Positions 190 through 41,040 of a stretch of 42,496 nt of DNA are shown here, piece by piece. A model generated the notes under the pieces. The model saw nothing but the letters and a program-made list of their open reading frames with translations, made no database searches and had not been told where the DNA came from. The DNA comes from Bacteroidaceae bacterium. Lineage in GTDB: Bacteria; Bacteroidota; Bacteroidia; Bacteroidales; Bacteroidaceae. Position 1 is the first letter of the stretch, and every line of letters begins with the position of its first letter. The position numbers and the translations under genes were made by a program. The DNA is taken from assembly GCA_017617235.1 (NCBI GenBank), contig JAFZWQ010000001.1, forward strand, positions 1 through 42,496, given 5' to 3'.

Positions 190-537
190 TTAGAAAAGTT
201 CGAGTTGTACCCCTGGTGCAATAGGTGCCTTTTCCTTCCTGCAGTAGAAGAGCTGGATGTCGCCAAACTGTTTGTCTGTGATTCCCAAGATGCCCACATT
301 GCCATATTCAGGCAATCTCGATTTAACGCGTTTAACATGTACATCCATGTTCTCTCGACTTGCACAATGTCGGATATAGATAGAGAACTGGAACATAGTG
401 AATCCATCGCCCATCAAGTCCTTGCGGAACTTGGCAGCAGCTTTTCGTTCTTTCTTTGTATCAGTTGGCAAGTCGAAGAAAACAAGAATCCACATAGCGC
501 GATATTGACTGAAGCGTGAAATGTCGTCTGTTAGCAT
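190..537 (-). CDS. cas2: CRISPR-associated endoribonuclease/integrase subunit Cas2
   Basis: 115-aa protein, usual Cas2 size. The N-terminal ferredoxin-like strand ends in FFDLPT with the conserved Asp at residue 22, followed by the basic helix (TKKERKAAAKFRK) and FSIYIRHC, typical of type II Cas2. Cas2 dimers bridge two Cas1 dimers in the spacer-integration complex. The gene starts 4 bp after the cas1 stop, so the two are almost certainly co-translated. It is the last cas gene before the array. No csn2 or cas4 follows, which fits subtype II-C. Confidence 0.95.
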   Translation of the reverse strand: MLTDDISRFSQYRAMWILVFFDLPTDTKKERKAAAKFRKDLMGDGFTMFQFSIYIRHCASRENMDVHVKRVKSRLPEYGNVGILGITDKQFGDIQLFYCRKEKAPIAPGVQLELF

Positions 538-541
538 AGTC

Positions 542-1480
542 TTAGGTTTCCATTTGAGGATAAATTATATGCCGTAGTTCTCCACTGAAACATTTATATA
601 GTGAGGCTGTTGTCTGCGAAGCAGCAACCATCAGAGGACTACGCTTGCCATCGATTACAACATCCAATACGGGAATAGAAAGTAGTATGGCCTTCAATTC
701 TTTCGTCAATTCCTTGTAGTTATAGTTCTGCTTAATAGTTTTTACCACCAATTCATCCACGTATGGACGATAGGGCTCCATAATATCGTCGGCCAGGCAA
801 TAGGCGTTGTATCGATTATGATGGTGAATACCCAGTGTGGGAAGCAGGCCGCTGCTTACAAGAGAACGTGCAATGACAGCCCGCAGTATGGCATAGCCGT
901 AGTTTAGCAGATTGTTGGGCGGTTCACCTTCGCGTCCTCGTACAAAATTTGGAATATCGGGGAAAATGTTCTTCCAATAATAGGCGGCAGCTCGCGCCTC
1001 AAGATTATCGGCATCGCCGCTACGCACTTCGTCAATCCATACCTTCATGCATCGGGTTTCAGCATTGGCATGTTTCCTAAGCACAACTTCCTGATTTGCA
1101 ATTTTCTGTCGCACTGTCTGCTGCCATAGTTGCTTGCGCAAGGGTAGAGATGCGTCGAGTTGTTCACGAAAGCGTTCGTTCTGCAGAGTGTTGCCATAAA
1201 GCGGTAGCATCAGTCCTGTGGGCATACTGCGACTATCGCAAGTGATAACGGCTGCATTGTTCTCCAACAGGGCTTCTATCACACCCGTGGTTATGGTGAT
1301 ACGCTTGTTGTCGAGCACTACTACACCAATATCCTCGATAGGAATCGTGCGTTCGGTTACTCTTTTGTCTTCCTCTGATATGTTTTCGTTTTTCTCTACA
1401 TCAGGGATTTGAATGAGCAACTGTCCATTGCGCAGGCTTAGATACGCCGGATTTGAGAAGCAAAGTGTTTTCTTAATCAT
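542..1480 (-). CDS. cas1: CRISPR-associated integrase Cas1 (type II)
   Basis: 312-aa Cas1. The metal-binding residues are visible: Glu161 in DNLEARAAAYYW, His at 219-221 in GIHHHNRYNAYCLADDIMEP, and Asp231/232 with Glu235 downstream. The N-terminal beta-sheet domain spans about 1-80 and the helical catalytic domain about 100-312. Its role is integration of new spacers together with Cas2 and, in type II systems, Cas9. The start lies only 14 nt beyond the T-tract of a strong terminator after cas9 (1495-1525). No convincing promoter of its own is seen, so cas1-cas2 may depend on read-through. Confidence 0.96.
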   Translation of the reverse strand: MIKKTLCFSNPAYLSLRNGQLLIQIPDVEKNENISEEDKRVTERTIPIEDIGVVVLDNKRITITTGVIEALLENNAAVITCDSRSMPTGLMLPLYGNTLQNERFREQLDASLPLRKQLWQQTVRQKIANQEVVLRKHANAETRCMKVWIDEVRSGDADNLEARAAAYYWKNIFPDIPNFVRGREGEPPNNLLNYGYAILRAVIARSLVSSGLLPTLGIHHHNRYNAYCLADDIMEPYRPYVDELVVKTIKQNYNYKELTKELKAILLSIPVLDVVIDGKRSPLMVAASQTTASLYKCFSGELRHIIYPQMET

Positions 1481-1494
1481 AGCAATTTAAGGTT

Positions 1495-1525
1495 AAAAAA
1501 AGAGCCCACATGTTCTGTGGGCTCT
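1495..1525 (-). terminator. Rho-independent terminator between cas9 and cas1
   Basis: Perfect 10-bp stem AGAGCCCACA/TGTGGGCTCT with a 5-nt loop. On the minus strand it is followed by seven T residues (1495-1501). It lies 11 bp after the cas9 stop and ends just before the cas1 start region, so it should reduce cas1-cas2 transcription relative to cas9. Confidence 0.85.
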
Positions 1526-1536
1526 CTGGTTAATAA

Positions 1537-4500
1537 TTAGTTTTCTCTGGATGGTAATATGTCTCCCAGGTGATTGACGCGTACCTTGACAATTCCTTCA
1601 AGTGATTGCATATTCCTTAATCTTTTATATGTATATCCGAATAATGAACTATTATCGTTTAATATTGCTTCTAAATGATGTCTGAAGACATAGTCTCTTC
1701 CACCTTCTGTTTTTGACATCTTCTGTACACGATACAAATGTTTGCTGATTTCAGCCTTATTCTTTGGGTTGGACAAATCTATTGTATTTGGGTCGAATCC
1801 ATGTTCTACATCAGGAAATATGAAATATTCGTTCTGTTTCATTGAGAATAGGAACTTCCATCCTAGTGTTGCATTGTAATCTGTATCTACCACAGGCTGC
1901 CCAAGTGCTTTACGGGTCGTTGCCTCTAGGAAGGACACAGCCACATCCTGCAGGATGCCATTATTGTCACGATAAACAGCAATGTGGTGCGTGCTGGATG
2001 TCTGTACATAATCGACAGGCCTCTTCCTACCATTTTCATCTGTGATAGGTTGTCCGAAGTGATCCTTGGCTTCATGCAGAGGAATAGCGCTGAGGACACC
2101 ACGTATTCGTACGTTTTTGATAGTAATTCCCTTCTCTTTGTTCAGGTAGATAGGATTCTCGTCGAGGTTTGAAAAGGCTTTCTTGGCATCACCGTCGAAT
2201 GCATTTAGTCGCTCTTCAAGAATACGACGGATGCCTACATCTATAATCTTGTCTAATTTCAAATCTGGCGAAACAGGCTTACGGATAGGGTAGTATTCTT
2301 CGAAATAGACAAGTTTTACTTTTGGTGGTACTTGTTCTGCATGTTCCTCATCGAGCCATATAGGTTTTTTCTCAAGAGAATTCTTTCCAGTAAAAGCTTT
2401 CTTGGGGTCGTTTTCATATTGTGCCAAACGAGTTAATATGGCCTCTCGATAAGCTTTCTTCGCAATTAGTTGTGCTCGTTCAGATGTCATCTTCCCGTCC
2501 AACTTCACCATTTCAGTTACATAGTGTTGCGTATGACCATATATGGTTTCGTTATGAAGTTGTCCACGTGGGGTTAGTTGGTTCTTCTTATTTGTTCCAC
2601 CCTTAATCTTCGACTTATTAACGTTCTGTGTCATCACTTTGTTCTTCGCCTTGATGGAGATGAGAATATCCATAAGTTGGCGTTTGGCTTCGGCTCGGAA
2701 TTCATCGAGTTTCATAGGTGCGCGGAATCGCAGTTTTCCATGACTATCACGATAGAGATAAAGCTGTTCTATTGCATAGATGCTACCTGATTTATCGCTG
2801 CGTGCGTTGAGATTGTTGAGATATTGGATGAAAGCGGGTTTGGTAAATGCTATTGTTAGGGCATCCATAGCATGATGGCGATGGTCGTTACGCTTTGTCC
2901 AGTCCTTGATAGTACGGATTTCACGTCCATCCTTATCCTTATATGTCTCTGTGAGTCCTAATCTGTTATACTTTTCCCAGTTAAGTTCCTGCATTACATC
3001 GACAATCTGCCAATCTTCGCGAAGGCGATCAGTTATGCTACCTACTGTTGGTGTAACAGTCATTACCAAATCTTCCAGTATCTCTCTTGCCTTCTTTGCA
3101 ATATATTGTGAGTTTCGAAGGTCGCGATCAATAAATCCTTCAGGAATGTCAACTTCTCGCATAAGTAGTTTATCGTGCTTTCCCTTGCCAATAACACCTC
3201 TTCGGTACAGGTCGTCGATTTTTGCCTTATAGTCTTTGGCTCTTTCCTCACCCCATTTGCCCAGAATATAATCGAAGGCTGTTGAATTACTCTTTTCGAT
3301 GTTTACATCACGGGCTTCCAAGGTTTTGTTTGAAAAGGAGTCGTCGAATAGGCGTGCTTGAGGAATGATGTGCTCTATATCGAAATCCTTGCTGAAGAGT
3401 TTCTCCTTTGGAATATAGGTATCTGAGTAGAGCGTTTTAAACCCATTTTCCTTCAACTCCATATATAGTTTGTATCGAATCAAGTCGTTGCGACTGACGT
3501 GCTGGATTCCGAATTCTGTTTCCAGTACTTTACGATACTTCTCATTCAAAAGGTTGGCTTCGTTGATGTCCTGTGTCTTCTTCTCACGTTCCTTTGCGCT
3601 GTTCTTAAGGTCGCGAGCTAGTTCAATTCTAATCTCATCAGGTTTACCATATTCCTCGCACACGGCATTTACAACGTTTATCATTTGATTGAGAATCTTC
3701 TCCACAACGGGGTTGCGGAGATAATTGCGTGGAAGAAGTTCAAGGTGGTCTTTATATTCTCTGTTTTCCAATTCCTCTTTAGTGCGTGAGCGTTCAGAGT
3801 GTCTATATCCAGCCTCTTCACATGCTTTGTCATAAGTAAGTCCCTTTTTCAAATGTGGCAGAATCTTCCTCATAGCCTTTGCGCTGAGGCTTCCATAGTC
3901 TTCTTGGAACGATATATTTGCCAATACTTGAGCGTATTCTCGCTCGCACTTACATAGAGTCTGTATTTTGGCAATAAGAGCCTCGTTGCCAGTCTTAGAA
4001 TTGTCACCCTCGTAAGAATATAGTAGATGCCAGAGTTGGTAAAGAGACTGTTGGTCGAAAGCATGTTTTTCCAATGACGAATCGAATCGAAGGATGCCTT
4101 CATTAAATCCCAGCAAACTGAATATCTGGCTGGCTATTCCCTCTATATCCCGAGCTGAAAGTTTATTTATATCATAGTCCTCGTGTCCAGAAAGGGCAAT
4201 GATATTAAAATAAGCACGATAGAGTGCAGCGATGGTGCGGTTTCCCTCAACTTCTTTATAATTCAGGTCATACTTCTTTGCAGCCTTACCAAAAAGGATA
4301 CTGAGGACTTCCCTTTTTGATAGTTTATCTTTATAAAGTAGTTCGTGCGCGAGGCATTCCATTTCCTCAAGTGAAAGGAAACGTCGCTGTTCCGTTTCAG
4401 CAAAAAGGTCTTCACCAGGGGCATCATATTCAACTTGCAGGTTATTGAGTACTTGCCACACCTTAAATTCTTGGAAGAGAGGCGATGATTTGGGACAAAC

Positions 4501-5697
4501 TTTAAGGCCGACAGTCTTCACTCGCTTTTTCCCATCCTCTGTAAGCTCTATCTGATGATTCTCAAATGTACAGATATCAAGCATTGCTTTTTTACTCTTC
4601 AAAGGACGTTGGTAGAATATGATGATGTCTCGAATCTTAGTTTTTAACTCAGGAGTCAACTCTGGATGAAACTGTGCCTGGGTTGCCCAAATACGCTCAA
4701 ATTCCTCAAAATAGTCCTGGCGATAAAATGTTACATTCTTTAGACTATAATGAGGATTATCCTCTATGTGTTCTAAGATATATTGCCCAATTGTTTGGCG
4801 GTTGAAATACAATTCCTTCGAACGATCGCTGATAGCTCCTAAATAACCACTACTGCCAGTAATAGCACCGTTTGTATCTGCAATAACATAGGCCAATTCT
4901 TCTTGTGAAAGTTTGTTTTTTAGAGCCTCTGTTCGCCATTTGTATTGTTGTAGTTTACGGTTTGTGCCTTTGTTCTCGGCAGTATAAATGCCATATTTTG
5001 CAAGGAATATGTTTGCTGTTTTTGTTTTGGACTTTCCCTGTAACTGGTTATAAAATTCATCCGTGAGAATATCAGGATGATAGGCCCTTTGGATTTCCCA
5101 TATCGTATCAAACTCCGACTGCAGGTCAGAACGATAGAAATCTGGAATATACTTCTTTCCGTCCATAAGAAGTTGATAGGAATATTGCCCAGGAGTGAGA
5201 TGCTCATCATGAAGCTTCTTGGCAACTTCCATTCCGTCTATCAGCGAACCTTCCTCTGTAGATTTTGCCTTACGACTACTCTTGTATCCGCGTTTTTTGT
5301 TAATCATCAGCAGAATACGCGCAAACTCTTCGAGACTGACCTCTTCTGTGACTGCCCTTGCACGGGAGCGAAGTGTGGAGAATGTTGTACGAGGACCATT
5401 TTCGGAAAGAACTGTATCATCCTGTATGATGTTGGCTTCTTTTAAACACGAAATCAAATTTGTACGACGTAGTTTATAACGTTGCAGATTACGTCGCATA
5501 CTCCTCTTAAGAGTACGGTCTGCATTTGTTGTTATGCTTTTACCTTTCTCAAAATTAGTCTGCTCATCTACTGTCAAGGGTACAACTCTTACACCTAAAC
5601 GAGTTATAGATGATTGTTCTTCATTGTTCTCTGCTTCGTTAACTAAAGCCCATCCTATACTAGTAGTACCCAAATCCAAGCCTAAAATGCGTTTCAT
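1537..5697 (-). CDS. cas9: CRISPR RNA-guided endonuclease Cas9 (subtype II-C, long form)
   Basis: 1386-aa Cas9 that cuts DNA matched by crRNA:tracrRNA. RuvC-I: LGLDLGTTSIGWAL with Asp8. Arg-rich bridge helix about 60-82 (RTLKRSMRRNLQRYKLRR). RuvC-II: EIRIELARD with Glu692. HNH: DFDIEHIIPQ with His776 and downstream Asn790. RuvC-III: DHRHHAMDALT with His942 and Asp945. All catalytic residues are present, so it should be an active nuclease. The PAM-interacting C-terminal region spans about 1080-1386. It is longer than the Campylobacter or Neisseria II-C enzymes (about 1000-1080 aa) and closer to the Bacteroidetes form. cas9 heads the operon cas9-cas1-cas2, divergent from the tracrRNA. Codon use looks more AT-rich than in the metabolic genes to the right, compatible with horizontal acquisition. 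Confidence 0.98.
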   Translation of the reverse strand: MKRILGLDLGTTSIGWALVNEAENNEEQSSITRLGVRVVPLTVDEQTNFEKGKSITTNADRTLKRSMRRNLQRYKLRRTNLISCLKEANIIQDDTVLSENGPRTTFSTLRSRARAVTEEVSLEEFARILLMINKKRGYKSSRKAKSTEEGSLIDGMEVAKKLHDEHLTPGQYSYQLLMDGKKYIPDFYRSDLQSEFDTIWEIQRAYHPDILTDEFYNQLQGKSKTKTANIFLAKYGIYTAENKGTNRKLQQYKWRTEALKNKLSQEELAYVIADTNGAITGSSGYLGAISDRSKELYFNRQTIGQYILEHIEDNPHYSLKNVTFYRQDYFEEFERIWATQAQFHPELTPELKTKIRDIIIFYQRPLKSKKAMLDICTFENHQIELTEDGKKRVKTVGLKVCPKSSPLFQEFKVWQVLNNLQVEYDAPGEDLFAETEQRRFLSLEEMECLAHELLYKDKLSKREVLSILFGKAAKKYDLNYKEVEGNRTIAALYRAYFNIIALSGHEDYDINKLSARDIEGIASQIFSLLGFNEGILRFDSSLEKHAFDQQSLYQLWHLLYSYEGDNSKTGNEALIAKIQTLCKCEREYAQVLANISFQEDYGSLSAKAMRKILPHLKKGLTYDKACEEAGYRHSERSRTKEELENREYKDHLELLPRNYLRNPVVEKILNQMINVVNAVCEEYGKPDEIRIELARDLKNSAKEREKKTQDINEANLLNEKYRKVLETEFGIQHVSRNDLIRYKLYMELKENGFKTLYSDTYIPKEKLFSKDFDIEHIIPQARLFDDSFSNKTLEARDVNIEKSNSTAFDYILGKWGEERAKDYKAKIDDLYRRGVIGKGKHDKLLMREVDIPEGFIDRDLRNSQYIAKKAREILEDLVMTVTPTVGSITDRLREDWQIVDVMQELNWEKYNRLGLTETYKDKDGREIRTIKDWTKRNDHRHHAMDALTIAFTKPAFIQYLNNLNARSDKSGSIYAIEQLYLYRDSHGKLRFRAPMKLDEFRAEAKRQLMDILISIKAKNKVMTQNVNKSKIKGGTNKKNQLTPRGQLHNETIYGHTQHYVTEMVKLDGKMTSERAQLIAKKAYREAILTRLAQYENDPKKAFTGKNSLEKKPIWLDEEHAEQVPPKVKLVYFEEYYPIRKPVSPDLKLDKIIDVGIRRILEERLNAFDGDAKKAFSNLDENPIYLNKEKGITIKNVRIRGVLSAIPLHEAKDHFGQPITDENGRKRPVDYVQTSSTHHIAVYRDNNGILQDVAVSFLEATTRKALGQPVVDTDYNATLGWKFLFSMKQNEYFIFPDVEHGFDPNTIDLSNPKNKAEISKHLYRVQKMSKTEGGRDYVFRHHLEAILNDNSSLFGYTYKRLRNMQSLEGIVKVRVNHLGDILPSREN

Positions 5698-6176: not shown

Positions 6177-6521
6177 CTAAAATACCGCAGCAATCCTGCG
6201 GATTTTATCTAATCGCTTCATGAAGGAATTGTCTTTCTTCATCTGTTGCATGTTATAGTCCGCCTGTAGACCAAGCCATATATTGGCATCCGTTCCAAGG
6301 GCTGCCTCCAGTAACAGCGCGTATTCGGTTGTAACAGGGCGCTTGCCGTTAAGTATCTCGTTGAATACGGTATAGGATACGCCCATTTGTTGGGCCAACT
6401 CCTTCTGTGTTATGCCACGAGCTATGATTTCGTCCTTTATCATTTCGCCAGGATGAATCAACAGGGATGACATCATTTTATTAGCAGTTCTCAGTTCCGA
6501 TATATTCATATTACTAGCCAT
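6177..6521 (-). CDS. higA: HigA-family antitoxin (XRE-type DNA-binding)
   Basis: 114-aa protein with the HigA addiction-module signature: LLIHPGEMIKDEI, then the helix-turn-helix ITQKELAQQMGVSYTVFNEILNGKRPV (about 38-62), then LLLEAALGTDANIWLGLQ. It would neutralise the HigB toxin and repress the shared promoter. It begins 8 bp after the higB stop, the usual toxin-first order of this family. A weak hairpin (GGAAAA/TTTTCC, 6155-6171) lies just downstream, ahead of the stronger duplicated terminator. Confidence 0.92.
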   Translation of the reverse strand: MASNMNISELRTANKMMSSLLIHPGEMIKDEIIARGITQKELAQQMGVSYTVFNEILNGKRPVTTEYALLLEAALGTDANIWLGLQADYNMQQMKKDNSFMKRLDKIRRIAAVF

Positions 6522-6529
6522 GCTTTATC

Positions 6530-6847
6530 TTATTTGTAATGATTTGACAATTCCACAATGTTGCAAATAGTGACTATTGGCTCTTCTGTTGTCTCTGATA
6601 GAGTGAACTCTATTCTGTACTGGTCATTGGCCCTGATAGAGAATCTGCCTTCCTTGTCACCATGTAGTGCTTCGAAGTTAAGTGATCTGAAGGGGAATAA
6701 GTCTTCCTTGCGTTTGGCCTGTATCAGAAACTTAATTCCCTTTTGATACCCTCTTACTATTTGGGGCTGGAACCGGTATTTCTTTAGCCCAGTTTCTCCT
6801 TTCTTGTAGAGGTCCTCAAGATATTGTTCTTCGAATGTTACTACCAT
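6530..6847 (-). CDS. higB: HigB-family toxin (RelE/ParE-type mRNA interferase)
   Basis: 105-aa protein from the start chosen here (MVVTFEEQYLEDLYKKG). An upstream in-frame ATG at 6898 would place the promoter inside the gene and add residues not typical of the family. The sequence shows the RelE-like core: KYRFQPQIVRGYQKGI, then FRSLNFEALHGDKEGRFSIRANDQYRIEFTL, then the C-terminal ICNIVELSNHYK. Proteins of this type cleave mRNA on the ribosome. It pairs with the downstream higA. Confidence 0.9.
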   Translation of the reverse strand: MVVTFEEQYLEDLYKKGETGLKKYRFQPQIVRGYQKGIKFLIQAKRKEDLFPFRSLNFEALHGDKEGRFSIRANDQYRIEFTLSETTEEPIVTICNIVELSNHYK

Positions 6848-6867
6848 TTCATGTATTATTTCGCTTG

Positions 6868-6909
6868 CAAAGATAAACAAGATATTCGAAATTCGCAAAA
6901 AATCGAATT
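6868..6909 (-). promoter_or_regulatory. higBA promoter with candidate operator
   Basis: Minus-strand TTTG (6896-6899), 20 bp, TATCTTTG (6868-6875) is a full consensus promoter. An inverted repeat AATTCG (6890-6895)/CGAATT (6904-6909) overlaps the -33 box and is a plausible HigA operator. The operator role is inferred from position. Confidence 0.7.
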
Positions 6910-22241: not shown

Positions 22242-23774
22242 TTACTTCAGGGCTTTGTTCAGCATGTAGTACATCTCGTTGTTCTGCAGCTGCTGCTTGA
22301 ACTCGTAGGTCTTCGTCTCCTTGTTAATCTTGACATACTCGATGCCAACCATCTCGGCGAAGTCTTCCCAGTACTCCTCGGTGATGTCGTAGGAGAAGGC
22401 GCTGTGGTGAGTACCACCTGCCAGAATCCATGCGCCGGCACCAATCTCGAACGTGGGCTGGGGAACCCAGAGGGCAGATGCAACGGGCAGGTGAGGCATG
22501 GGCTTCGGCTCGATGCACTCAACCTCCTGAGAAATCAGACGGAAGCGGTTGCCGAGGTCAACAACGGTAGCCTTGATACCACGACCGGTCTTCGAGGTGA
22601 AGACGAGACGGGCGGTCTGCTGCTTGCGGATACCGATACCCAGGAAGTGAACCTCCAACTTGGGCTTGTCGCTGGCAATCAGCGGGCAAATCTCCAACAT
22701 GTGGCTCTGCAGGCAAGACGACTGACTGCCGGCGAAGTTGAGGGTGTAGTCCTCGAGGAACGAGCAACCCGTGGGCATACCCTGCTGGATAACCCACAGG
22801 GTGCGATACAGACATGCGGTCTTCCAGTCACCTTCGGCACCGAAACCGTAACCTTCTTCCATCAGACGCTGAGAAGCGAGACCGGGAATCTGGTCGAAAC
22901 CGAGGAAGTTGGGGTCGTCGATATCAGCACCACCCAGGTCGTCGAAGTTGGTGGTGAAGGCGGTAGCACCCTCATCCTTCAGTACGCGACGCAGGGCGAT
23001 TTCAGCCTTGGCTGCGTTGTGAACCTTCTCCCAATATACCTTTTCGCCGCTCTCGTCAATCTTGATGGTGTACAACTTCTTGTACTCCTCAACGAGGTCG
23101 TCTGCCTCCTTGTCGGTAACCTGCTTGAAGTACTCCATCAGACTGCTAACGGGATAGTAGTCAACATGATAACCCATGCGCTGCTCGAACTCTACGCGGT
23201 CGCCATCGGTAACGGCCACGTTGTTCATGTTCATACCGAACATCAAGCAACGAACGTTGTGTGCATCGGCAACACCGGCAGCAACGCGAGCCCAAACGGC
23301 AATCTTCTTCTGAACGTCGGCTTCCTTCCAGTAACCGCAAACCACCTTGCGGGCTACACGCATACGAGTGCAGATGTGTCCGAACTCGATGTCGCCGTGA
23401 GCACTCTGGTTCAGGTTCATGAAGTCCATGTCGATGGTGTCCCAGGGAATCTCGGCGTTGTACTGGGTGTGGAAGTGGAGGAGGGGCTTCTGCAACTGCT
23501 GCAAGCCCTTGATCCACATCTTTGCGGGCGAGAAGGTGTGCATCCAGGTGATGATACCTACGCACTTCTCGTCGTTGTTGGCAGCCAGCATCACCTGCTC
23601 TACTTCCTTCGAGCTGTTGGCAGTGCCCTTATATACAATCTTCACGGGGATGTTGCCGCTGTTGTTCAGTCCTTCAACCATCTCCTTCGAGTGAGCGTCA
23701 ACTGCGATGACTGCGTCACCTCCATAGAGCAACTGTGCACCAGTTACCCACCAAATCTCTAAATTTTCAAACAT
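22242..23774 (-). CDS. araA: L-arabinose isomerase
   Basis: 510-aa AraA that converts L-arabinose to L-ribulose in the cytoplasm. The active-site residues match E. coli AraA: Glu307 (MEEGYGFGAEGDWKT), Glu341 (FLEDYTLNF), His358 (SHMLEICPLIA), and the His pair at 456-457 (GGTHHSAFS). The N-terminal start MFENLEIWWVTGAQ is the family norm. The length is standard. Co-transcribed with araD upstream, across a GC-rich element at 23779-23903, and with araB downstream. Confidence 0.97.
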   Translation of the reverse strand: MFENLEIWWVTGAQLLYGGDAVIAVDAHSKEMVEGLNNSGNIPVKIVYKGTANSSKEVEQVMLAANNDEKCVGIITWMHTFSPAKMWIKGLQQLQKPLLHFHTQYNAEIPWDTIDMDFMNLNQSAHGDIEFGHICTRMRVARKVVCGYWKEADVQKKIAVWARVAAGVADAHNVRCLMFGMNMNNVAVTDGDRVEFEQRMGYHVDYYPVSSLMEYFKQVTDKEADDLVEEYKKLYTIKIDESGEKVYWEKVHNAAKAEIALRRVLKDEGATAFTTNFDDLGGADIDDPNFLGFDQIPGLASQRLMEEGYGFGAEGDWKTACLYRTLWVIQQGMPTGCSFLEDYTLNFAGSQSSCLQSHMLEICPLIASDKPKLEVHFLGIGIRKQQTARLVFTSKTGRGIKATVVDLGNRFRLISQEVECIEPKPMPHLPVASALWVPQPTFEIGAGAWILAGGTHHSAFSYDITEEYWEDFAEMVGIEYVKINKETKTYEFKQQLQNNEMYYMLNKALK

Positions 23775-23778
23775 AATT

Positions 23779-23903
23779 CAGCCCCCCTCTTATCCCCCGA
23801 GGGGGAAGACCAAACAGGGGCAATGGGTCTTTGTTAGTAATGTAATATTTAATTATCTATTTTGATTCACCCTTCTCCTCCCCTCGGGGAGGTTGGGAGG
23901 GGG
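23779..23903. mobile_element. GC-rich inverted-arm intergenic element, copy 1
   Basis: Fills the araD-araA gap. Left arm 23779-23811 (CAGCCCCCCTC ... CCCCCGAGGGGG ...) and right arm 23869-23903 (... CCCCTCGGGGAGG ...) are imperfect inverted copies, each holding its own palindrome, around about 57 AT-rich bp. The first 34 nt are identical to copy 2 (26885-26918). It has no coding capacity. Confidence 0.7.
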
Positions 23904-24608
23904 TTACTTCTTCTTTTGGCCATAATAAGCGTTGGGGCCGTGCTTACGCATGTAGTGCTTCTCGATGAGCAGGGGATTCATCGTGAGGTTGGGGTTCACG
24001 CTGAAGGCTACGAAGGCCATCTTGGCACATTGCTCCATCACTTTGGCGTTATAGACGGCGTTGTCGGGAGAGGTGCCCCACGAGAACGGACCGTGGTTCT
24101 TGACGAGAACGGCGGGCGTGTGGTCGGGGTTAATCTTGCGGATGTTCAGAATTTCGTCCACGATGACATTACCTGTTTCCAGTTCGTACTGACCTTTCAC
24201 CTCGGCTTCCGTCATATCGCGCGTGCACGGGATTTCCTTATAGAAATAGTCGGCATGCGTGGTACCGATGTTGGGGATGTCGCGTCCGGCCTGAGCAAAT
24301 GCTGTGGCGTAGGTGCTGTGGGTGTGAACCACACCCTGGATGTTGGGGAACGCCTTGTAGAGTACGAGGTGCGTTGGGGTGTCGCTTGAGGGGTTCAGGT
24401 CGCCCTCGACCACCTTTCCTGTCTCCAGGTCTACAACTACCATATCGCTGGCCTTCATTTCGTCGTAGCTGACGCCACTGGGCTTAATCACTACAAGGCC
24501 CTTCTCGCGGTCGATACCGCTCACATTGCCCCAAGTGAATATCACCAGGCCTTGCTTCACAAGGTCCAAATTGGCCTTAAATACTTTTTGTTTTAATTCT
24601 TCTAACAT
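23904..24608 (-). CDS. araD: L-ribulose-5-phosphate 4-epimerase
   Basis: 234-aa class II aldolase-like epimerase giving D-xylulose-5-phosphate. The start [14 protein letters not shown] aligns with E. coli AraD, and upstream ATGs belong to the repeat element leader. Zinc ligands His95, His97 (GVVHTHSTY) and His172 (KNHGPF) are present, with Asp76 (SSDTP) and Asp120 (TTHADYF) at the same positions as the E. coli active-site residues. It follows the GxxExxY gene, and its leader lies inside the right part of that element. The 15 nt before its start are nearly identical to those before xylE. Confidence 0.95.
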
Positions 24609-25150
24609 AATCATTTCATGCTTATGCACAGAGAGCGCAGAGAGGACAGAGCACGCAGAGGTTTATACCTTACAGGATTTGTGTTATCCGTTTAATTTTC
24701 GTTTAACTCCGTCTATCAGGCGAGGCACATTAAAGTTAATCAGGAGGCCGAGATTCTTATTCGTCAGTTTCAAGTATGTCATGAGTTGGTGTTCACCGAT
24801 GTTTTGCATCCAATTTACGGATTTCAACTCTAATATAATCTCATTTTCGATGAGAAGGTCAATAACAAAATACTTGTCAGTCAGTTTCCCTTTATAATAA
24901 AGTGGTAATCGTACTTGTTTCTGAACTTTTAAGTTTCTTTGTTCCAGTTCTTCAATCAGACAGACTTCATAGACAGACTCAAGCAAACCTGGCCCTAAGA
25001 ACTTGTGAACCTCAATTGCGGCTCCTATAATGGCCTCCGATATCTTATTCAGTTGTTCTAATCTCTCTTCAGGAATCATGCCTCTCTCTCTGTCGCTCTT
25101 TAATCTCTCTGTCTCTGTGACCTCTGTCTTCTCTGTGCTCTCTGTGCTTA
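24609..25150. mobile_element. 9-nt-repeat element carrying a GxxExxY gene (filled copy)
   Basis: Arms of 9-nt units ending ACAGAG (or CTCTGT on the other strand) in opposite orientation: 24609-24688 and 25096-25150. By hand alignment without gaps, the first arm matches 28472-28551 at 69 of 80 positions and the second matches 28564-28618 at 52 of 55. Between the arms are 407 bp holding the GxxExxY gene; in the other copy there are 12 bp. The element sits between the SSS symporter gene and araD in the arabinose operon. The mobile nature is inferred from this filled/empty pair. Confidence 0.75.
24684..25079 (-). CDS. GxxExxY family protein (PD-(D/E)XK nuclease-like)
   Basis: 131-aa protein. The family motif Gly31-LL-Glu34-SV-Tyr37 lies in LGPGLLESVYEVCL. 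A PD-(D/E)XK-like core follows: YFVIDLLIENEIILELKS with Asp74, Glu84 and Lys86, then Gln98 in EHQLMTYLKL, and the usual end LGLLINFNVPRLIDGVKR. The family is common in Bacteroidetes and other phyla, often in many copies, and its function is unknown. Here it lies inside an arabinose operon with which it has no metabolic link, between inverted 9-nt repeat arms, and its stop codon is at the arm edge. A nuclease acting on the element's own DNA or RNA is possible but unproven. Confidence 0.88.
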   Translation of the reverse strand: MIPEERLEQLNKISEAIIGAAIEVHKFLGPGLLESVYEVCLIEELEQRNLKVQKQVRLPLYYKGKLTDKYFVIDLLIENEIILELKSVNWMQNIGEHQLMTYLKLTNKNLGLLINFNVPRLIDGVKRKLNG

Positions 25151-25155
25151 ATTAA

Positions 25156-26880
25156 TTACCAGAAATACCAATAGAATGTGGCGCAGAGGCCAACAACCAC
25201 GAGGGTACCGATGATGTCGAATGCACCCCAGCTCTGCTTGATGGAAGCCTTGAAGTCCTTGGTGAAGGTGATGGCATCAATCTGTTCCTTGCTGGGAGCA
25301 GGTGTGAACAGGGATACGGCATAGATGAATACCAACAGGAAGACGAGCAGCCAGCACTCGAACACGAGCCAGTTTGTCTGCCAGAACCATGTGGTGTTCT
25401 CCCAGAACGCACCTTCCATCGTGGCACGACCCGTGTCGGTGAATACGTTGGTAACCAGGCGAATCATACCGATTACGAAACCGACAATCATGGTGTATTC
25501 ACCAGCCTTGGGGGTAACTCTCTTACTGAGGATACCGCAGGCGAATACAACAGCCATTGCGGGAGCCAGCAGCGACTGGATGCCCTGCAGGTAGTTGTAC
25601 AGCGTGTCCATACCCATCATGATGGGTAGCCAGGCGAAGCCCAGAATAACCACTACAACGGTAGCTACACGACCGATAAATACATATTGTGCCTCGCTCA
25701 GACCTTGCTTCAGGGGCTTGTAGAAGTCCTCGACGAACAGGGTGGCACAGCTGTTGAAGAAGGCTGCCAGAGAGGCCACCAGAGCGCAAATGAATCCGAT
25801 GGTTACGATACCCTTGATACCAGCGGGCAGCACCTGCTGTACCATGATGGCAAAGGCTGCATCGGTCTCCTGCATCTGGAAGGCACCTTTCTCGGCCAGT
25901 GCTGCTGCAATCATACCGGGGATGAGGAACATGAAGCAGGGGAGTACCTTGAAGAAACCTGCGGCAATGGTACCGCGACGTGCGCGCTTCATCACCTCGG
26001 CATTGTCCTCACCGGGAACCTGACCCAGTACACGTTGTACGATGTGCTGGTCGGTACACCAGTACCAGAAACCGATGATGCAGGCACCCAGGAATACCAC
26101 GAAGCCAGGATATTCGGCATACATCGAGTCACCCTCTTCCCAGTGGAACATGTGTGTGGTGCCGTAGCCGTTATTCAACTGACCGCAGTAATCCATCATG
26201 CTGGTCCAACCTTCGACAATGCTGCCGCCGCCCAGGGTAGCCAAACCCAGGAACAGCACGAGGAACGAACCGATGATGAGGATGGGGGTCTGTATGCTGG
26301 AGAGGGTCATCACACCCTTCATGCCGCCGAATACGGTGAACACAGCGGTGATGAGAATCAGACCAATGGCTCCGTACCAGAAGTTCAGGCCCCAGAGATA
26401 TTTGAAGAAGATACCACCCGTCAGGGCTGTTACACTCACCTTCGTCAGGATGTAAGCCACCAGCGTGATGACAGACAGCCAGTAACCCGTACGCTTGGTG
26501 TAGCGGAACTTCAGGAAGTCGGGCATGGTGATAATCTTGCCCATCTTGTTAATCAGCAGCTGATAGAAAGGTACGAACAGCCAACCGAGGATGAGAATCA
26601 TCCATCCCTGCATCTCCCAGTGTGCCATACCCACACCGCTCTTGGCGCCTGTACCGGCCAGACCTACAAGGTGCTCGGAACCGATGTTGGCGGCAAAGAT
26701 AGCCATACCGATTACATACCAGGGTTCGCCCTTACCGAAGAGGTAGGCCGAAGAGTCCTCGCCCTTTTGGGCTTTCTTGTCTTTGACGATAGAGTGGTAC
26801 ACCGCCCAAACCACGCCAAACAGGCCGATGGCGAGTACCGCCCAGTCGAGCCAAATAAATTCAGTTGAACTCCAATTCAT
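25156..26880 (-). CDS. Sodium/solute symporter (SSS family), probable arabinose transporter
   Basis: 574-aa inner-membrane protein with about 14 hydrophobic segments. The SSS core is visible: WYVIGMAIFAANIGSEHLVGLAGTGAKSG (about 52-80), MPDFLKFRYTKRTGYWLS (119-136), VFTVFGGMKGVMTLSSIQTPILI, and the sodium-site-like CALVASLAAFFNSCATLFVEDFY. Best read as an SGLT/AraP-like sodium:sugar symporter because of its place in the araBAD operon. Substrate is inferred from context. It lies between a GC-rich element upstream and the GxxExxY element downstream. Confidence 0.88.
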   Translation of the reverse strand: MNWSSTEFIWLDWAVLAIGLFGVVWAVYHSIVKDKKAQKGEDSSAYLFGKGEPWYVIGMAIFAANIGSEHLVGLAGTGAKSGVGMAHWEMQGWMILILGWLFVPFYQLLINKMGKIITMPDFLKFRYTKRTGYWLSVITLVAYILTKVSVTALTGGIFFKYLWGLNFWYGAIGLILITAVFTVFGGMKGVMTLSSIQTPILIIGSFLVLFLGLATLGGGSIVEGWTSMMDYCGQLNNGYGTTHMFHWEEGDSMYAEYPGFVVFLGACIIGFWYWCTDQHIVQRVLGQVPGEDNAEVMKRARRGTIAAGFFKVLPCFMFLIPGMIAAALAEKGAFQMQETDAAFAIMVQQVLPAGIKGIVTIGFICALVASLAAFFNSCATLFVEDFYKPLKQGLSEAQYVFIGRVATVVVVILGFAWLPIMMGMDTLYNYLQGIQSLLAPAMAVVFACGILSKRVTPKAGEYTMIVGFVIGMIRLVTNVFTDTGRATMEGAFWENTTWFWQTNWLVFECWLLVFLLVFIYAVSLFTPAPSKEQIDAITFTKDFKASIKQSWGAFDIIGTLVVVGLCATFYWYFW

Positions 26881-26884
26881 AATG

Positions 26885-27005
26885 CAGCCCCCCTCTTATC
26901 CCCCGAGGGGGAAGACCATATAGGGGCTTGGGTCTATTGTTACTAATAATTATTATCCGTTTTCAAGCAGTCCTTCTCCTTCCCTCGGGGAGGCTGGGAG
27001 GGGGT
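26885..27005. mobile_element. GC-rich inverted-arm intergenic element, copy 2
   Basis: Fills the xylE-SSS gap. The left arm (26885-26918) is identical over 34 nt to copy 1. The right arm (26970-27005, TCCCTCGGGGAGG ... GGGAGGGGG) is its imperfect inverse, around AT-rich sequence. It also keeps the short hairpin AGACC/GGTCT seen in copy 1. Confidence 0.7.
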
Positions 27006-27007
27006 CT

Positions 27008-28471
27008 TTATTTTCTTGTTTTCCAGAGCCGGCTCATGTCCTCCAGCGTCTTGCCTTTGGTTTCGGGAACCAGTCGCCATACGAAGATGGCTGCGACAAT
27101 GCAGATGAGTCCGTAGAGACCATAAGTGAACCAATGTCCGAAGTTCTCATCACTACCGAGGTGCATGTTGAACATCGGCACGAAGGTCGAGCTGACGATG
27201 AAGTTGAATATCCACTGGAAAGCCACAGCGATAGCTACAGCACCACCACGGATGGTGTTGGGGAAAATCTCGGCAATGAGTACCCACGTGATGGGGCCCC
27301 ACGAGAACATGAACGAAGCCGAATAAATCAGCAGCGATGCGGCTGTGACTAAGGCCAGACTCTCGTTGCCGAAGGTGATGGCTACGCCCAGGGCACCCAG
27401 CGCCATTCCAAGCGAACCGGAGATGAGCAGCGGCTTGCGGCCCCATTTCTCAACGGTGAACACAGCCACCAGAGTGAACGAGATGTTGATGATGCCCATG
27501 AATACGGTCAGCATCATCGGGTCGTCCATACCCATATCGCCAAAGATGCGAGGTGCGTAGTACAGCACGGCGTTGATGCCAACGGCCTGCTGGAACACGC
27601 TGAGCATGATGCCCACGAAGATACACATAGCACCATAGGTCATCAGTTTCTCGGTCTTCACCACCATCGTGTCCTTGATGTCCTGCAGAATCTGTGCGGC
27701 CTTGCTTGTGCCGTTAATCTTGGCAAGAATACGGGAAGCCACATCGTCGCGACCAATCGATACCAGATAACGCGGAGTCTCAGGAACAAAGCAGATGAGC
27801 AGGGCGAAGAGTCCTGCGGGTACTGCCTCGCTTCCGAACATGTAGCGCCATCCTGTGGTCACCGTCCATTGTGCGGCGGGATTGATGGCGGCAATGCCCT
27901 TACCCATCTCCTCCACCAGCGGCTGGATGTGGTCGCCCAGGATGAAGAAGTTCACGAAATAAACCACCAGCTGACCGAAGATGATGGCGAACTGGTTCCA
28001 GCTTACCAACATACCTCTTATATTAGAGGGAGCCACCTCACCGATGTACATAGGACAGATGGCTGAGGCCAGACCTACGCCGATACCGCCTATCACGCGA
28101 TAGAAGTTGAACATGATGAGCAGCGAATAGGTAGGCTCACCATAGTTGAAGAACAGGAACTCGGGTTCCATACTGCCCAATGCAGAGATGAAGAACAACA
28201 AACCTGCGATAATCAGCGAGCGTTTACGTCCTAAGTTCGTGGCCAGGAGGCCCGACAGAGATGAACCGATAATACATCCGATGAGTGCGCTGGCGGAAGT
28301 GAATCCGTGCCAACCGTCGGTATAGGTGAAGTCCTTGGCTTCCATGAAGAAGGCCTGCAGACCCTTTTCGGCACCCGATATTACAGCGGTGTCGTACCCG
28401 AAGAGCAAGCCTCCGAGTACGGCAACCATCACAATACTTATCAAATAGCCTTTGCTACCCTTATCTTTCAT
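27008..28471 (-). CDS. xylE: MFS sugar:proton symporter (XylE/GLUT family)
   Basis: 487-aa 12-helix transporter. Sugar-porter signatures: GGLLFGYDTAVISG, NLGRKRSLI after helix 2, PETPRYL in the central loop, QQAVGINAVLYYAPRIF (helix 7), EKWGRKPLL, and VPETKGKTLEDM at the C-terminus. In E. coli XylE the QQ...N motif binds D-xylose; here arabinose or xylose is likely from the operon. The start MKDKGSKGYLIS was chosen because the 16 upstream residues (MCSVFSVCSVHKNEMI) come from the 9-nt repeat element; an ATG 6 nt upstream is also possible. Confidence 0.9.
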   Translation of the reverse strand: MKDKGSKGYLISIVMVAVLGGLLFGYDTAVISGAEKGLQAFFMEAKDFTYTDGWHGFTSASALIGCIIGSSLSGLLATNLGRKRSLIIAGLLFFISALGSMEPEFLFFNYGEPTYSLLIMFNFYRVIGGIGVGLASAICPMYIGEVAPSNIRGMLVSWNQFAIIFGQLVVYFVNFFILGDHIQPLVEEMGKGIAAINPAAQWTVTTGWRYMFGSEAVPAGLFALLICFVPETPRYLVSIGRDDVASRILAKINGTSKAAQILQDIKDTMVVKTEKLMTYGAMCIFVGIMLSVFQQAVGINAVLYYAPRIFGDMGMDDPMMLTVFMGIINISFTLVAVFTVEKWGRKPLLISGSLGMALGALGVAITFGNESLALVTAASLLIYSASFMFSWGPITWVLIAEIFPNTIRGGAVAIAVAFQWIFNFIVSSTFVPMFNMHLGSDENFGHWFTYGLYGLICIVAAIFVWRLVPETKGKTLEDMSRLWKTRK

Positions 28472-28618
28472 AATCATTTCATTCTTATGCACAGAGCACA
28501 CAGAGAAAACAGAGCACACAGAGGTTTATACCTTTTTGGATTTGTGCTATCATCTTCTTCTTTCTCTTTAATCTCTCTGTCTCTGTTACCTCTGTCTTCT
28601 CTGCGTTCTCTGTGCTTA
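28472..28618. mobile_element. 9-nt-repeat element without a gene (empty copy)
   Basis: Same inverted arms as 24609-25150 (28472-28551 and 28564-28618), separated here by 12 bp. It keeps GTATAAACC, GCACAAATCC and the bases corresponding to the end of the GxxExxY gene, so it looks like an internally deleted or never-filled copy. It occupies the whole galM-xylE gap, including the galM stop codon, and could form a long RNA hairpin within the operon transcript. Confidence 0.75.
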
Positions 28619-29782
28619 TTTAACAGAGAACTTATAAGTGCAATGGCTGACGTATGTGTCACCGGGATTCAGCGTGGCGCTGGGCCAGCCTTCCAGGTTG
28701 CTCTTGTTGGGCGTGTCGGGATACTTCTGGGTTTCCAGACAGATGGCTGCGTGCTGGTTGTATGTGATGCCCTTCTTGCCCACAGCACTGCCGTCCAGGA
28801 AGTTACCGCTGTACACCTGTATGCCGGGTTCGTCGGTGAATACCTCCATCAGGATGCCCGTTTCGGGGCTGTAGATGCTGGCAGCCACCTGGCTCATGTC
28901 GCCCTTGGTGTTCAGGCACCAGTTGTGGTCGAATCCGTTGCCGTTCTTAATCTGCTCGAACTCGAAGTTCTTGATGTCCTGACCCACGCTGTGTGCTGTG
29001 CGGAAGTCCATCGGAGTGCCCTCTACGGGAGCAATCTCACCCGTTGTCATGAATGTAGCGTCCACCGGGGTATAGGTGTCGGCATTCACGTAGAGGTCGT
29101 GGTTGGTGATGGCCTCTTCGGGGTTGCCGTTCAGGTTGAAGTAGCTGTGGTTTGTCATGTTGATGACGGTGGGTGCGTTCGTCGTTGCCTCGTAGCAAAT
29201 CTCCAGGGCATTGTCGTCCGTCAGGCTGTACACCACCGTTGCTGTTACCTCGCCGGGGAAGTTGTTGTCGCCGTCGGGGCTCACCAGCTTCAGCTGCAGA
29301 CAGCTCTCTGTGGCAGCCTCCACTTCGTAAACCTTATACTGCCATCCGTCGGGACCGCCGTGCAGACAGTGTCCGAAGTTGTTCTGCGGCAGCTGTATCT
29401 CCTTGCCGTCCACGGTAATCTTGCCCTGTGCGATGCGGTTGGCATAGCGTCCGATGGCTGCACCAAAGTCGCTGGGGTGGTTCTCCTTGTCGGCAAAGGT
29501 CTGCACGTTGTCGAAGGCCAGCACCACGTCCTTCATCTCACCGTTCTTGTCGGGAACCATGATGCTTACCACGCGACCGCCGAAGTTGGTGATGCACACC
29601 TCCATGCCGTTGTTGTTTCTCAGCGTGTAGAGCTTGGTCTCCATGCTGTCAATGGTCATTTCAAAGTCTGCGGGGTTCAGTCCCGAGGCGGTCAGTTCGG
29701 CCTCCTGCGTCTTTGTCTGGCACGATGCCATCACGGCCATTGCCGACAGGGCAAAAAGCACGTTTTTTACGATTGTTTTCAT
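28616..29782 (-). CDS. galM: Aldose 1-epimerase lipoprotein (exported mutarotase)
   Basis: 388-aa mutarotase with a lipoprotein signal peptide (lipobox VMASC, Cys21), so it acts in the periplasm or at the outer membrane. Catalytic residues: His141 (HGGPDGW), His212 (NHSYFNL), and base Glu350 (CLETQKYPD). It interconverts alpha and beta sugar anomers before uptake. First gene of the arabinose operon. A second, cytoplasmic mutarotase lies in the gal operon (36629-37708). The last codons and stop adjoin the repeat element. Confidence 0.93.
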   Translation of the reverse strand: MKTIVKNVLFALSAMAVMASCQTKTQEAELTASGLNPADFEMTIDSMETKLYTLRNNNGMEVCITNFGGRVVSIMVPDKNGEMKDVVLAFDNVQTFADKENHPSDFGAAIGRYANRIAQGKITVDGKEIQLPQNNFGHCLHGGPDGWQYKVYEVEAATESCLQLKLVSPDGDNNFPGEVTATVVYSLTDDNALEICYEATTNAPTVINMTNHSYFNLNGNPEEAITNHDLYVNADTYTPVDATFMTTGEIAPVEGTPMDFRTAHSVGQDIKNFEFEQIKNGNGFDHNWCLNTKGDMSQVAASIYSPETGILMEVFTDEPGIQVYSGNFLDGSAVGKKGITYNQHAAICLETQKYPDTPNKSNLEGWPSATLNPGDTYVSHCTYKFSVK

Positions 29783-40443: not shown

Positions 40444-41040
40444 TTAGATTCCCACTACCACTTTTGCGAAGCGGAGTACGGTGTCGTTCAGCATGTAACC
40501 CTTCTCCGTGCAGTCGATAACCTTACCTTTCAGCTCCTCCGACGGGGCGGGGAACTGGGTGACGGCTTCGTGGAAATCGGTGTTGAAGTCAGCACCTTCC
40601 GTCTTCATCTGCGTTACGCCTTGTGCCTCCATCACCTTCAGGAACTTCCTGTAGATGAGCTCTAGGCCTTCGCGCAAACTATTCTCTGTGGCCTCTGTTT
40701 GCTCTGTGGTCTCTGTGTTTCCCGCATGGGAAAGTGCACGCTCCAAATCGTCGATTACGGGCAGCATGGCCTCAAGAACTTTCCGACCTCCGTTCAGGAT
40801 GAGCTCGGCCTTCTCCTTGACGATGCGTTTGCGGAAGTTGTCGAACTCGGCCTGTTTGTACAGGCGTTCCTTCTCCAATTCTGCCACACGAGCCTCGGCA
40901 AGTGCCAATTTGTCCTCTATGGTTTCTTCCTGAGGTTCCTCGGTTTGGGGCTCTTCTGACTTAACGGACTCGTTATCAACGTTTTCCGTCTCGATATTCT
41001 CTTCTTGGACTTTTTCTTTGTATTCTGTTTCCTTATCCAT
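40444..41040 (-). CDS. grpE: Nucleotide exchange factor GrpE
   Basis: 198-aa DnaK exchange factor. Acidic N-terminus (about 1-50), long coiled-coil helix (ALAEARVAELEKERLYKQAEFDNFRKRI, about 66-93), four-helix part, and beta-wing end (GADFNTDFHEAVTQFPAP ... GYMLNDTVLRFAKVVVG). Within the middle, HAGNTETTEQTEATENS is encoded by four 9-nt repeat units (40682-40720) inserted in frame between helices. First gene of a probable grpE-dnaJ-folC operon. Confidence 0.95.
   Translation of the reverse strand: MDKETEYKEKVQEENIETENVDNESVKSEEPQTEEPQEETIEDKLALAEARVAELEKERLYKQAEFDNFRKRIVKEKAELILNGGRKVLEAMLPVIDDLERALSHAGNTETTEQTEATENSLREGLELIYRKFLKVMEAQGVTQMKTEGADFNTDFHEAVTQFPAPSEELKGKVIDCTEKGYMLNDTVLRFAKVVVGI
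40682..40720. repeat. Half of the 9-nt-repeat element, in frame within grpE
   Basis: Four 9-nt units of the form nnnACAGAG on the coding strand encode TE-containing tripeptides (NTE, TTE, QTE, ATE). They match the arm units of the elements at 24609 and 28472. Confidence 0.75.

Follow-up and report, generated by a model that had tools for sequence, protein, structure and literature searches.

The stretch of DNA analysed here, hereafter the window, comprises the 42,496 nucleotides at positions 1 to 42,496 of contig JAFZWQ010000001.1 of a Bacteroidaceae bacterium (assembly GCA_017617235.1), and harbors two copies of a palindrome with tandemly repeated arms, one of which encloses a gene of the GxxExxY family (the filled copy) and the other of which does not (the empty copy). 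This palindromic element is genuine, has moved on an evolutionary timescale and is linked to GxxExxY. It probably represents a mobile element, the full form of which codes for a cognate PD-(D/E)XK nuclease, accompanied by empty forms resembling miniature inverted-repeat transposable elements (MITEs). This reading is carried by the way in which the arms are built, oriented and conserved across phyla, the co-inheritance of protein clade and arm class, an arm copy number which depends on the gene, the existence of filled and empty sites, and the presence of in-frame arm copies in core genes; the nuclease is presumed to be the mover of the element.

Filled and empty copies in the window

The two copies, together with a single arm located elsewhere in the window, comprise the following features.

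24601..24621, + strand: sequence outside the arm, common to the empty copy, which holds the start-codon region of araD, the next gene
24622..24660, + strand: arm 3' of the gene, four CACAGAGnn-type units (repeat and pattern search)
24684..25079, - strand: GxxExxY (PDDEXK_3) gene, 131 aa (profile matches and alignment)
25113..25151, - strand: arm 5' of the gene, CACAGAGnn-type units in - orientation (repeat and pattern search)
24622-25151: whole filled element, a large palindrome
28464-28623: empty copy, whole shared span
28485..28523, + strand: left arm of the empty copy (repeat and pattern search)
28524..28580: loop of the empty copy, without the gene, resembling both gene-flanking stretches of the filled copy
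28581..28618, - strand: right arm of the empty copy (repeat and pattern search)
40684..40717, - strand: single four-unit CAGAG arm within grpE, in frame (TETTEQTEATE)

A sequence-only reading of the window had proposed that two sites in one operon share both flanking arms, and recomputation returned the same figures, with identity at 69 of 80 positions between 24609-24688 and 28472-28551 and at 52 of 55 between 25096-25150 and 28564-28618; the inter-arm gaps of 407 bp (filled) and 12 bp (empty) likewise agree with the coordinates. A repeat search lengthens the first of these direct pairs to 88 nt (85%) and the second to 60 nt (93%). The description of the arms as opposed 9-nt tandem repeats stands as regards their inversion and is refined as regards their structure, the arm being a four-unit block of approximately 34 nt which, by eye, approximates CACAGAGnnCrCAGAGrAGaCAGAGnnCACAGAG. 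The inverted arms of the filled copy (24622-24660 and 25113-25151) span 39 nt with 85% complementarity, and those of the empty copy (28499-28525 and 28588-28614) span 27 nt, also at 85%. The part shared with the empty copy reaches the stop codon of the gene on one side and starts approximately 17 nt before the gene start on the other. Allowing at most one mismatch, the arm pattern matches 44 times in the genome of the window, at 18 places, with both arms present at 4 of these; read backwards, the same pattern yields no match in this genome.

The identity of the gene in the filled copy is borne out by profile matches of its product to TIGR04256 (E 3.2e-41, 140.3 bits, cut-off 35) and PF13366 (E 4.7e-40, 137 bits, cut-off 22). 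Based on these matches and on an alignment of 17 diverse sequences, in which E34, D74, E84-x-K86 and Q98-xxx-Y102 are invariant, the protein is assigned to the GxxExxY/PDDEXK_3 family of the PD-(D/E)XK superfamily, with an intact D...ExK. It is the sole GxxExxY gene found in its genome, which is 85.5% complete. When a single A-like query (see below) was applied to plasmid and phage records, the gene was found in 8 of 72,556 and in none of 50,697, respectively, and the possibility that it represents a phage or plasmid cargo gene was rejected on these counts. An algal virus is, however, listed with a GxxExxY gene in PMC12085832.

Arms, protein clades and copy number across genomes

The architecture was assessed in a genus sample of 61 genomes (labelled G000 etc., G000 being that of the window), of which 39 carry a GxxExxY gene and 22 are gene-less, and in other taxa. 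Sixty-seven genus loci were taken from 76 rows, truncated or weak rows being omitted, and both flanks were available in 66; the other-taxa loci, the best 80 of 566, came from GTDB genomes scanned with a closer alignment, and flanks were available for 78. Loci were scored for an inverted repeat between the upstream and downstream flanks, and random places were scored in the same geometry. A score of at least 30 was attained by 51 of the 66 genus genes and 40 of the 78 genes from other taxa, compared with 7 of 804 and 7 of 960 random places, respectively. A score of at least 38 was attained by 28 of the 78 other-taxa genes and 2 of the 960 random places, while none of the 66 genus control open reading frames (ORFs) lay above 38 and none of the 141 other-taxa control ORFs reached it. 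Mismatched pairs, in which the upstream flank of one gene was combined with the downstream flank of another, reached 38 in approximately 1% of cases in the genus and in 38 of 3000 in other taxa. The random-place and control-ORF tests are independent of the arm-unit patterns employed below. Rarity of such arms around GxxExxY genes elsewhere, which the sequence-only reading had named as contrary to its proposal, is therefore not what is seen, though the unit sequence differs between elements.

In the genus, the arms mostly consist of tandem units of approximately 9 nt whose sequence varies by locus (CACAGAGnn, CACAGATTn, ACGGATTnn, ACGAATTnn, CACAGAAAn and others). The other-taxa hosts include Bacteroidota, Pseudomonadota, Planctomycetota, Verrucomicrobiota, Acidobacteriota, Chloroflexota, Cyanobacteriota, two archaea and others, and their unit is that of the window, CRCAGAG, a correctly oriented arm being present at 59 of the 80 loci. 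Pairs of RCRRAG occur in the sense orientation upstream at 44 and in the antisense orientation downstream at 43 of these loci, where approximately 3% would be expected for each; the reverse orientations occur at 12 and 10 of the 80. In 52 cross-phylum arms the outer end reads TTnACCRCRGAG; these arms hold 2-4 units, with a unit spacing of 8-11 nt, 9 nt being the commonest (44 of 96). Four loci from other phyla (L247, L254, L258 and L268) seemingly carry a complete palindrome on each side of the gene in place of single arms.

The GxxExxY proteins split into an A-like clade (GPGLLESVYE) and a C-like clade (GCGFTEKVYQDAL), and 173 of the 177 loci were classed by clade and arm. A-like genes are flanked by G-class arms in 69 cases and by T-class arms in 6, and C-like genes by G-class arms in 1 and T-class arms in 28 (Fisher 2e-18, relatedness ignored), a table which omits 60 further genes with neither G nor T arms (39 A-like and 21 C-like) and 9 intermediate proteins. 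Both clades co-occur in 18 genomes, in 8 of which both arms could be classed; seven of these 8 pair the A-like gene with G arms and the C-like gene with T arms, and the remaining one has G at both. On a tree of 103 of the 177 proteins, which has few columns and many weak forks, arm class requires 4 changes, compared with a shuffled mean of 29.3 (0 of 500 as low). Phylum, which is known for 56 of these proteins, requires 34 changes on the same tree, compared with 38.6 when shuffled (0 of 200 as low) and a possible minimum of 14, although paralogues also split phyla. Phylum is thus weakly, and arm class strongly, clustered on the protein tree, and the GxxExxY gene appears, therefore, to have crossed phylum boundaries accompanied by its arm class.

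Arm copy number also follows the gene, with the caveat that the p-values given here are rough because the genomes are incomplete and related. ACGGATT arms (at most 2 mismatches) gave 472 matches in the 39 gene-bearing and 3 in the 22 gene-less genomes (Mann-Whitney U, 9e-6), with a median of 11 in the 18 genomes possessing T-armed genes and 0 elsewhere (1e-6). CAGAG arms gave 236 matches in gene-bearing and 25 in gene-less genomes (p 0.035), with a median of 28 in the 5 genomes classed as CAGAG-armed, including G019, which has zero CAGAG matches and was so classed because the pattern RCRRAG also accepts ACAAAG arms, and 0 in the others (p 0.004). Exceptions are G025, G037, G014, G013 and G054, which have 14-27 CAGAG matches although the set contains no G-classed gene from them; in G025 there is the remnant of a deleted element. 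The dependence of arm copy number on the gene supports the earlier suggestion that empty copies are MITE-like derivatives, and the defining features of a MITE (short length, terminal inverted repeats, no transposase, many copies) describe the empty palindromes and single arms.

Filled and empty sites and arms within coding genes

The site between a symporter gene and araD, at which the filled copy of the window resides, was read in 30 of 44 matching genomes, the symporter being near enough to compare in 13. Four of the 30 loci are filled (G000, G045, G057 and G059), in G025 the gene is reduced to its last 16 codons while both arms remain, and G020 has 26 nt between symporter and araD; in others, different palindromes or another gene separate the two. 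In G014, a fragment (L115) resembling, by eye, part of a four-helix-bundle gene lies upstream of araD in TTTTTAATT/ACTTTTTAA arms. At a second site, between korA and korB, 54 loci were read and 52 junctions judged (51 genomes, G017 being counted twice). Twelve of the 52 hold GxxExxY between inverted arms of the ACGGATT, ACGAATT or CACAGATT type, so that the arm unit differs between species at one and the same site. The remaining 40 lack GxxExxY, and in 30 of them the gap is at most 40 nt (2-40 nt); in G023, the junction is occupied by a gene of the TIGR02436 family. The occurrence of filled and empty junctions indicates that the element comes and goes at fixed junctions. Vertical inheritance of the gene without empty sites had been named beforehand as the pattern that would speak against an element with empty derivatives; it is rejected in its pure form by the mixture at korA/korB, with 12 filled and 30 tight junctions, and at the likewise mixed araD site. 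Together with the arms found elsewhere, these empty sites support the interpretation that the gene lies within a palindromic repeat element with empty derivatives.

The sequence-only reading overlooked the single arms in coding genes, as well as the similar architecture of TIGR02436 loci discussed below. Of the 18 CAGAG places in the genome of the window, 14 fall in genes according to our own ORF reading, the remaining 4 being the two window copies, one place without an ORF and one which is ambiguous. The arm-bearing genes were assigned by family search to isoleucyl-tRNA synthetase, MtaB, DNA polymerase I, topoisomerase IV subunit A, GrpE and a lipoprotein, and in-frame arms, as in the palindromic elements of Rickettsia, are present in ileS, mtaB, polA and grpE. 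The frames read T-E-x, S-V-x and L-C-x, the last of these, by eye, in apparent lipoprotein signal peptides. In grpE, two anchors are separated by 60 nt in G000 and by 39 nt in all 8 relatives read, the arm being missing in all 8. In ileS, G000 carries a palindrome and G025 a decayed one, and other species carry other repeats in the same loop; in mtaB, a palindrome in G000 is matched by single arms in G016, G025, G045 and G057. A 9-nt period keeps reading frames open, and the survival of arms in genes may therefore be owed to it.

The DNA polymerase I linker of G000 (L161, contig C24) contains two CAGAG arms as direct repeats. At L163, L164, L165, L027 and L179, a CAGAG arm lies near the C-terminal end of a protein (such as ...LPKGVYIVNGKK), and these ends may be type IX sorting domains. 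Two copies of a further palindrome family (CCCCCCTC...GAGGGGG) lie in the window operon, at 23772-23904 and 26878-27005 (70 nt at 84% and 34 nt at 94%), and some relatives have, by eye, similar palindromes in ileS, between korA and korB and at the araD site. Elsewhere in the window, - strand ORFs at 190-5697 resemble cas2, cas1 and a 1386-aa cas9, and two small ORFs at 6177-6898 resemble a HigB/HigA toxin-antitoxin pair.

Proposed mechanism, alternatives and known systems

The complete form of the element consists of a GxxExxY gene between an arm and its inverted counterpart, each arm being 2-4 tandem units of approximately 9 nt, and the shortened form is two arms with a short loop, or a single arm. 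We propose that the GxxExxY endonuclease would bind the unit in its own arms, probably upon cruciform or hairpin extrusion of the palindrome, and cut there; through repair or re-insertion, the arms would then be copied elsewhere, whether or not the gene goes with them. A lead for this mechanism, rather than proof of it, comes from T7 endonuclease I, which resolves four-way junctions and cruciforms, structures of a kind that palindromes can form. It was the best of three weak matches in a search of solved structures (E 0.065). Profile-profile comparison with six phage endonuclease I sequences returned a probability of 85% for subsets A1 and A3 and 12% for A2, where 180 column-shuffled controls did not exceed 2.7%. 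The similarity spans the catalytic core, and in the A3 alignment D55 and E65xK67 of T7 endonuclease I match the D and ExK of GxxExxY, while its E20 lies one position off the GxxExxY glutamate E30; the invariant QxxxY of GxxExxY, in contrast, is only partly covered by the profile alignment. The phage endonuclease I model PF05367 (Phage_endo_I) gave 18 bits for L059, below its cut-off of 29.1, and no match to the window protein at E 0.001. Other PD-(D/E)XK families (Cas4, HSDR_N) also match at weak E-values; PADLOC models at E 0.1 returned no match for the window protein or L059, and a weak Cas4 match for L038 (E 0.0008). As a tentative extension, GxxExxY may be a relative of T7 endonuclease I that is specific for cruciforms, and the sole enzyme of a prokaryote-wide group of transposase-free palindromic elements, with clade-specific units and arm cassettes which seed in-frame insertions in essential genes, TIGR02436 heading a parallel lineage.

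A number of observations, however, weigh against a mobile element with its own nuclease. The CAGAG pattern read backwards still matches 20 times in the 61 genomes; G002, which is 86% complete, has 12 CAGAG matches and no GxxExxY gene that could be found, and seven further gene-less genomes have 1-4 CAGAG matches each. Three of the 18 T-armed genomes (G031, G049 and G054) have zero ACGGATT copies, and G019 (49 copies) and G042 (9 copies) carry them although no T-armed gene from either genome is in the set. At a threshold score of 30, 15 of the 66 genus genes and 38 of the 78 others lack an arm pair, and the flanks of different genes resemble one another, as is evident from the other-taxa mismatched pairs, because units are shared. 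No target-site duplication was seen by eye at the korA/korB or araD site, where the species compared are too diverged. In mtaB, the arm-bearing segment is 75 nt (G016 and G057) and the element-free segment 105 nt (G014, G022, G056 and G059), and arm copying therefore seems to replace sequence rather than simply insert into it. The rarity of the gene on plasmids and its absence from the phage records searched with the A-like query also count here, as do the E-value of the T7 endonuclease I match, its low probability with A2 and the displaced catalytic residue.

A homing endonuclease is an unlikely explanation, yet one with several points in its favor. The palindrome would then predate the gene as a repeat that spread on its own, and serve as recognition site; GxxExxY would be a parasite that cuts the empty copies, is copied into them and protects the filled ones. 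The position of the gene between two half-sites, as in homing genes, the filled and empty copies of one palindrome within one operon, the arm copies of gene-less G002, which could be left-over targets, and the presence of TIGR02436 genes in similar palindromes, even at the korA/korB junction, are consistent with such a parasite. The 30 empty korA/korB junctions, however, are gaps of 2-40 nt and thus offer no palindrome to home into, ACGGATT arms are nearly absent from gene-less genomes, and arm class travels with the protein across phyla, which argues that the repeat is not an independent substrate.

Slightly less probable is mobilization of the palindromes by another enzyme, an insertion sequence (IS) transposase or a reverse transcriptase, with GxxExxY and TIGR02436 as cargo or accessories. 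Nothing at the target sites ties the nuclease to insertion, and BrickBuilt, a tandem-repeat MITE of Bacteroidales, has IS5-family-like inverted ends according to PMC4596501. Two unrelated gene families also share the architecture, yet each has its own arms: the pair RCRRA[GT] is found at 1 of 30 TIGR02436 loci and at 28 of 67 and 61 of 80 GxxExxY loci, a contrast which is descriptive, the patterns having been composed after the arms were viewed. Two families with the same layout and separate arms favor arm-specific proteins, and leave room for a shared outside mover; the arm unit, moreover, follows the GxxExxY clade, and the nuclease active site is kept.

That the arms are immobile and serve the gene in regulation or RNA processing (by autoregulation, as hairpins in the mRNA or as a toxin-antitoxin-like RNA partner) is improbable. 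Operon junctions, in which a hairpin of the mRNA could have an effect, do hold many of the copies, the gene is co-directed with its upstream neighbor in 48 of 63 cases and with its downstream neighbor in 37 of 60 (the strand of one locus, L061, being misread), and PD-(D/E)XK genes occur in defence systems, one member weakly matching Cas4 models as noted above. In-frame copies, however, occur within ileS, mtaB, polA and grpE, and PADLOC did not match the window protein or L059. The mRNA hairpin as a selected feature was rejected, given that sense-strand G-U-type mismatches between arms show no surplus (144 versus 136, from 105 of 177 loci) and that Rfam has no match in 23500-29000. Coincidence, in which a gene merely tolerates the operon junctions of a group rich in short palindromes, the Bacteroidales, is scarcely credible even though palindromes of other families also reside in these junctions and coding loops, as chance origin is rejected by the backwards-pattern, control-ORF and random-place controls and the unit beside the gene is the same across many phyla.

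A mobile palindromic element with a cognate nuclease would be of significance in several respects. GxxExxY is a widespread family without known function, and a specific DNA target provides it with a testable one. The element offers an enzyme for palindromic elements which enter coding genes, the mobilization of those of Rickettsia being, to our knowledge, unexplained; it also accounts for odd low-complexity stretches (TExTEx, LCxLCx and SVxSVx) in the core proteins of the bacteria concerned, and could yield nucleases that differ, clade by clade, in the repeat unit they read. That a small nuclease gene of many bacteria and a few archaea lies within palindromes which seem to be its own targets, while empty copies are dispersed in the genome and reach even into essential genes, suggests an undescribed kind of mobile DNA. 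In the literature searched, as far as the available texts extend, GxxExxY is named only in passing (PMC8934634 and PMC12085832), "PF13366" occurs in PMC9756366, "PDDEXK_3" was not found, and none of six arm-like sequences appears in any text.

The closest parallel in the same genomes is the TIGR02436 (S23/four-helix-bundle) family, likewise a small gene in a palindrome of tandem units and once at the same junction. Among its genus loci (L131-L160), 17 of 28 score at least 38 and 23 of 28 at least 27, a value reached by 102 of 1500 mismatched pairs. The protein is unrelated to GxxExxY, however, and its arm units differ (e.g., AAGAAGTTA, TTGACAA and AGTTGAA), the pair GTTRA/ATTGR being found at 18 of 30 loci compared with 1 of 67 and 1 of 80 GxxExxY loci, again a descriptive contrast. 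The family is linked to 23S rRNA intervening sequences; a literature search for a four-helix-bundle protein with an inverted repeat and an intervening sequence found nothing. BrickBuilt, described from Porphyromonas gingivalis, is also a Bacteroidales MITE containing tandem repeats. Its bricks, however, are 23 nt rather than approximately 9 nt, and it has no transposase remnant according to PMC4596501, whose text contains no word beginning "nuclease"; it is, furthermore, strictly intergenic according to PMC10969869. The same source describes Rickettsia palindromic elements (RPEs) of approximately 150 bp which insert in frame into protein-coding genes. RPEs thus share with the present element in-frame palindromic repeats in protein-coding genes, and differ from it in that one linked nuclease gene and a range across many phyla are seen here. 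We know of no enzyme that mobilizes RPEs.

Repetitive extragenic palindromes (REPs) and their associated tyrosine transposases (RAYTs) resemble the element in comprising high-copy short palindromes with a single gene lying between them and in the clade-specific pairing of enzyme and repeat. RAYTs (TnpA-REP) are HUH/Y1 transposases. The gene described here, in contrast, encodes a PD-(D/E)XK nuclease, for which only PDDEXK_3/GxxExxY was reported at E of at most 0.001, and the arms are 2-4 tandem units of approximately 9 nt which occur in frame in coding genes. Whereas REP ends bear a GTAG- or CGTC-type tag, according to PMC3733652, the outer end observed here in 52 arms, TTnACCRCRGAG, is without a tag of this type. 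The element works like a REP/RAYT system without being one, since its gene does not encode a transposase of the HUH/Y1 kind.

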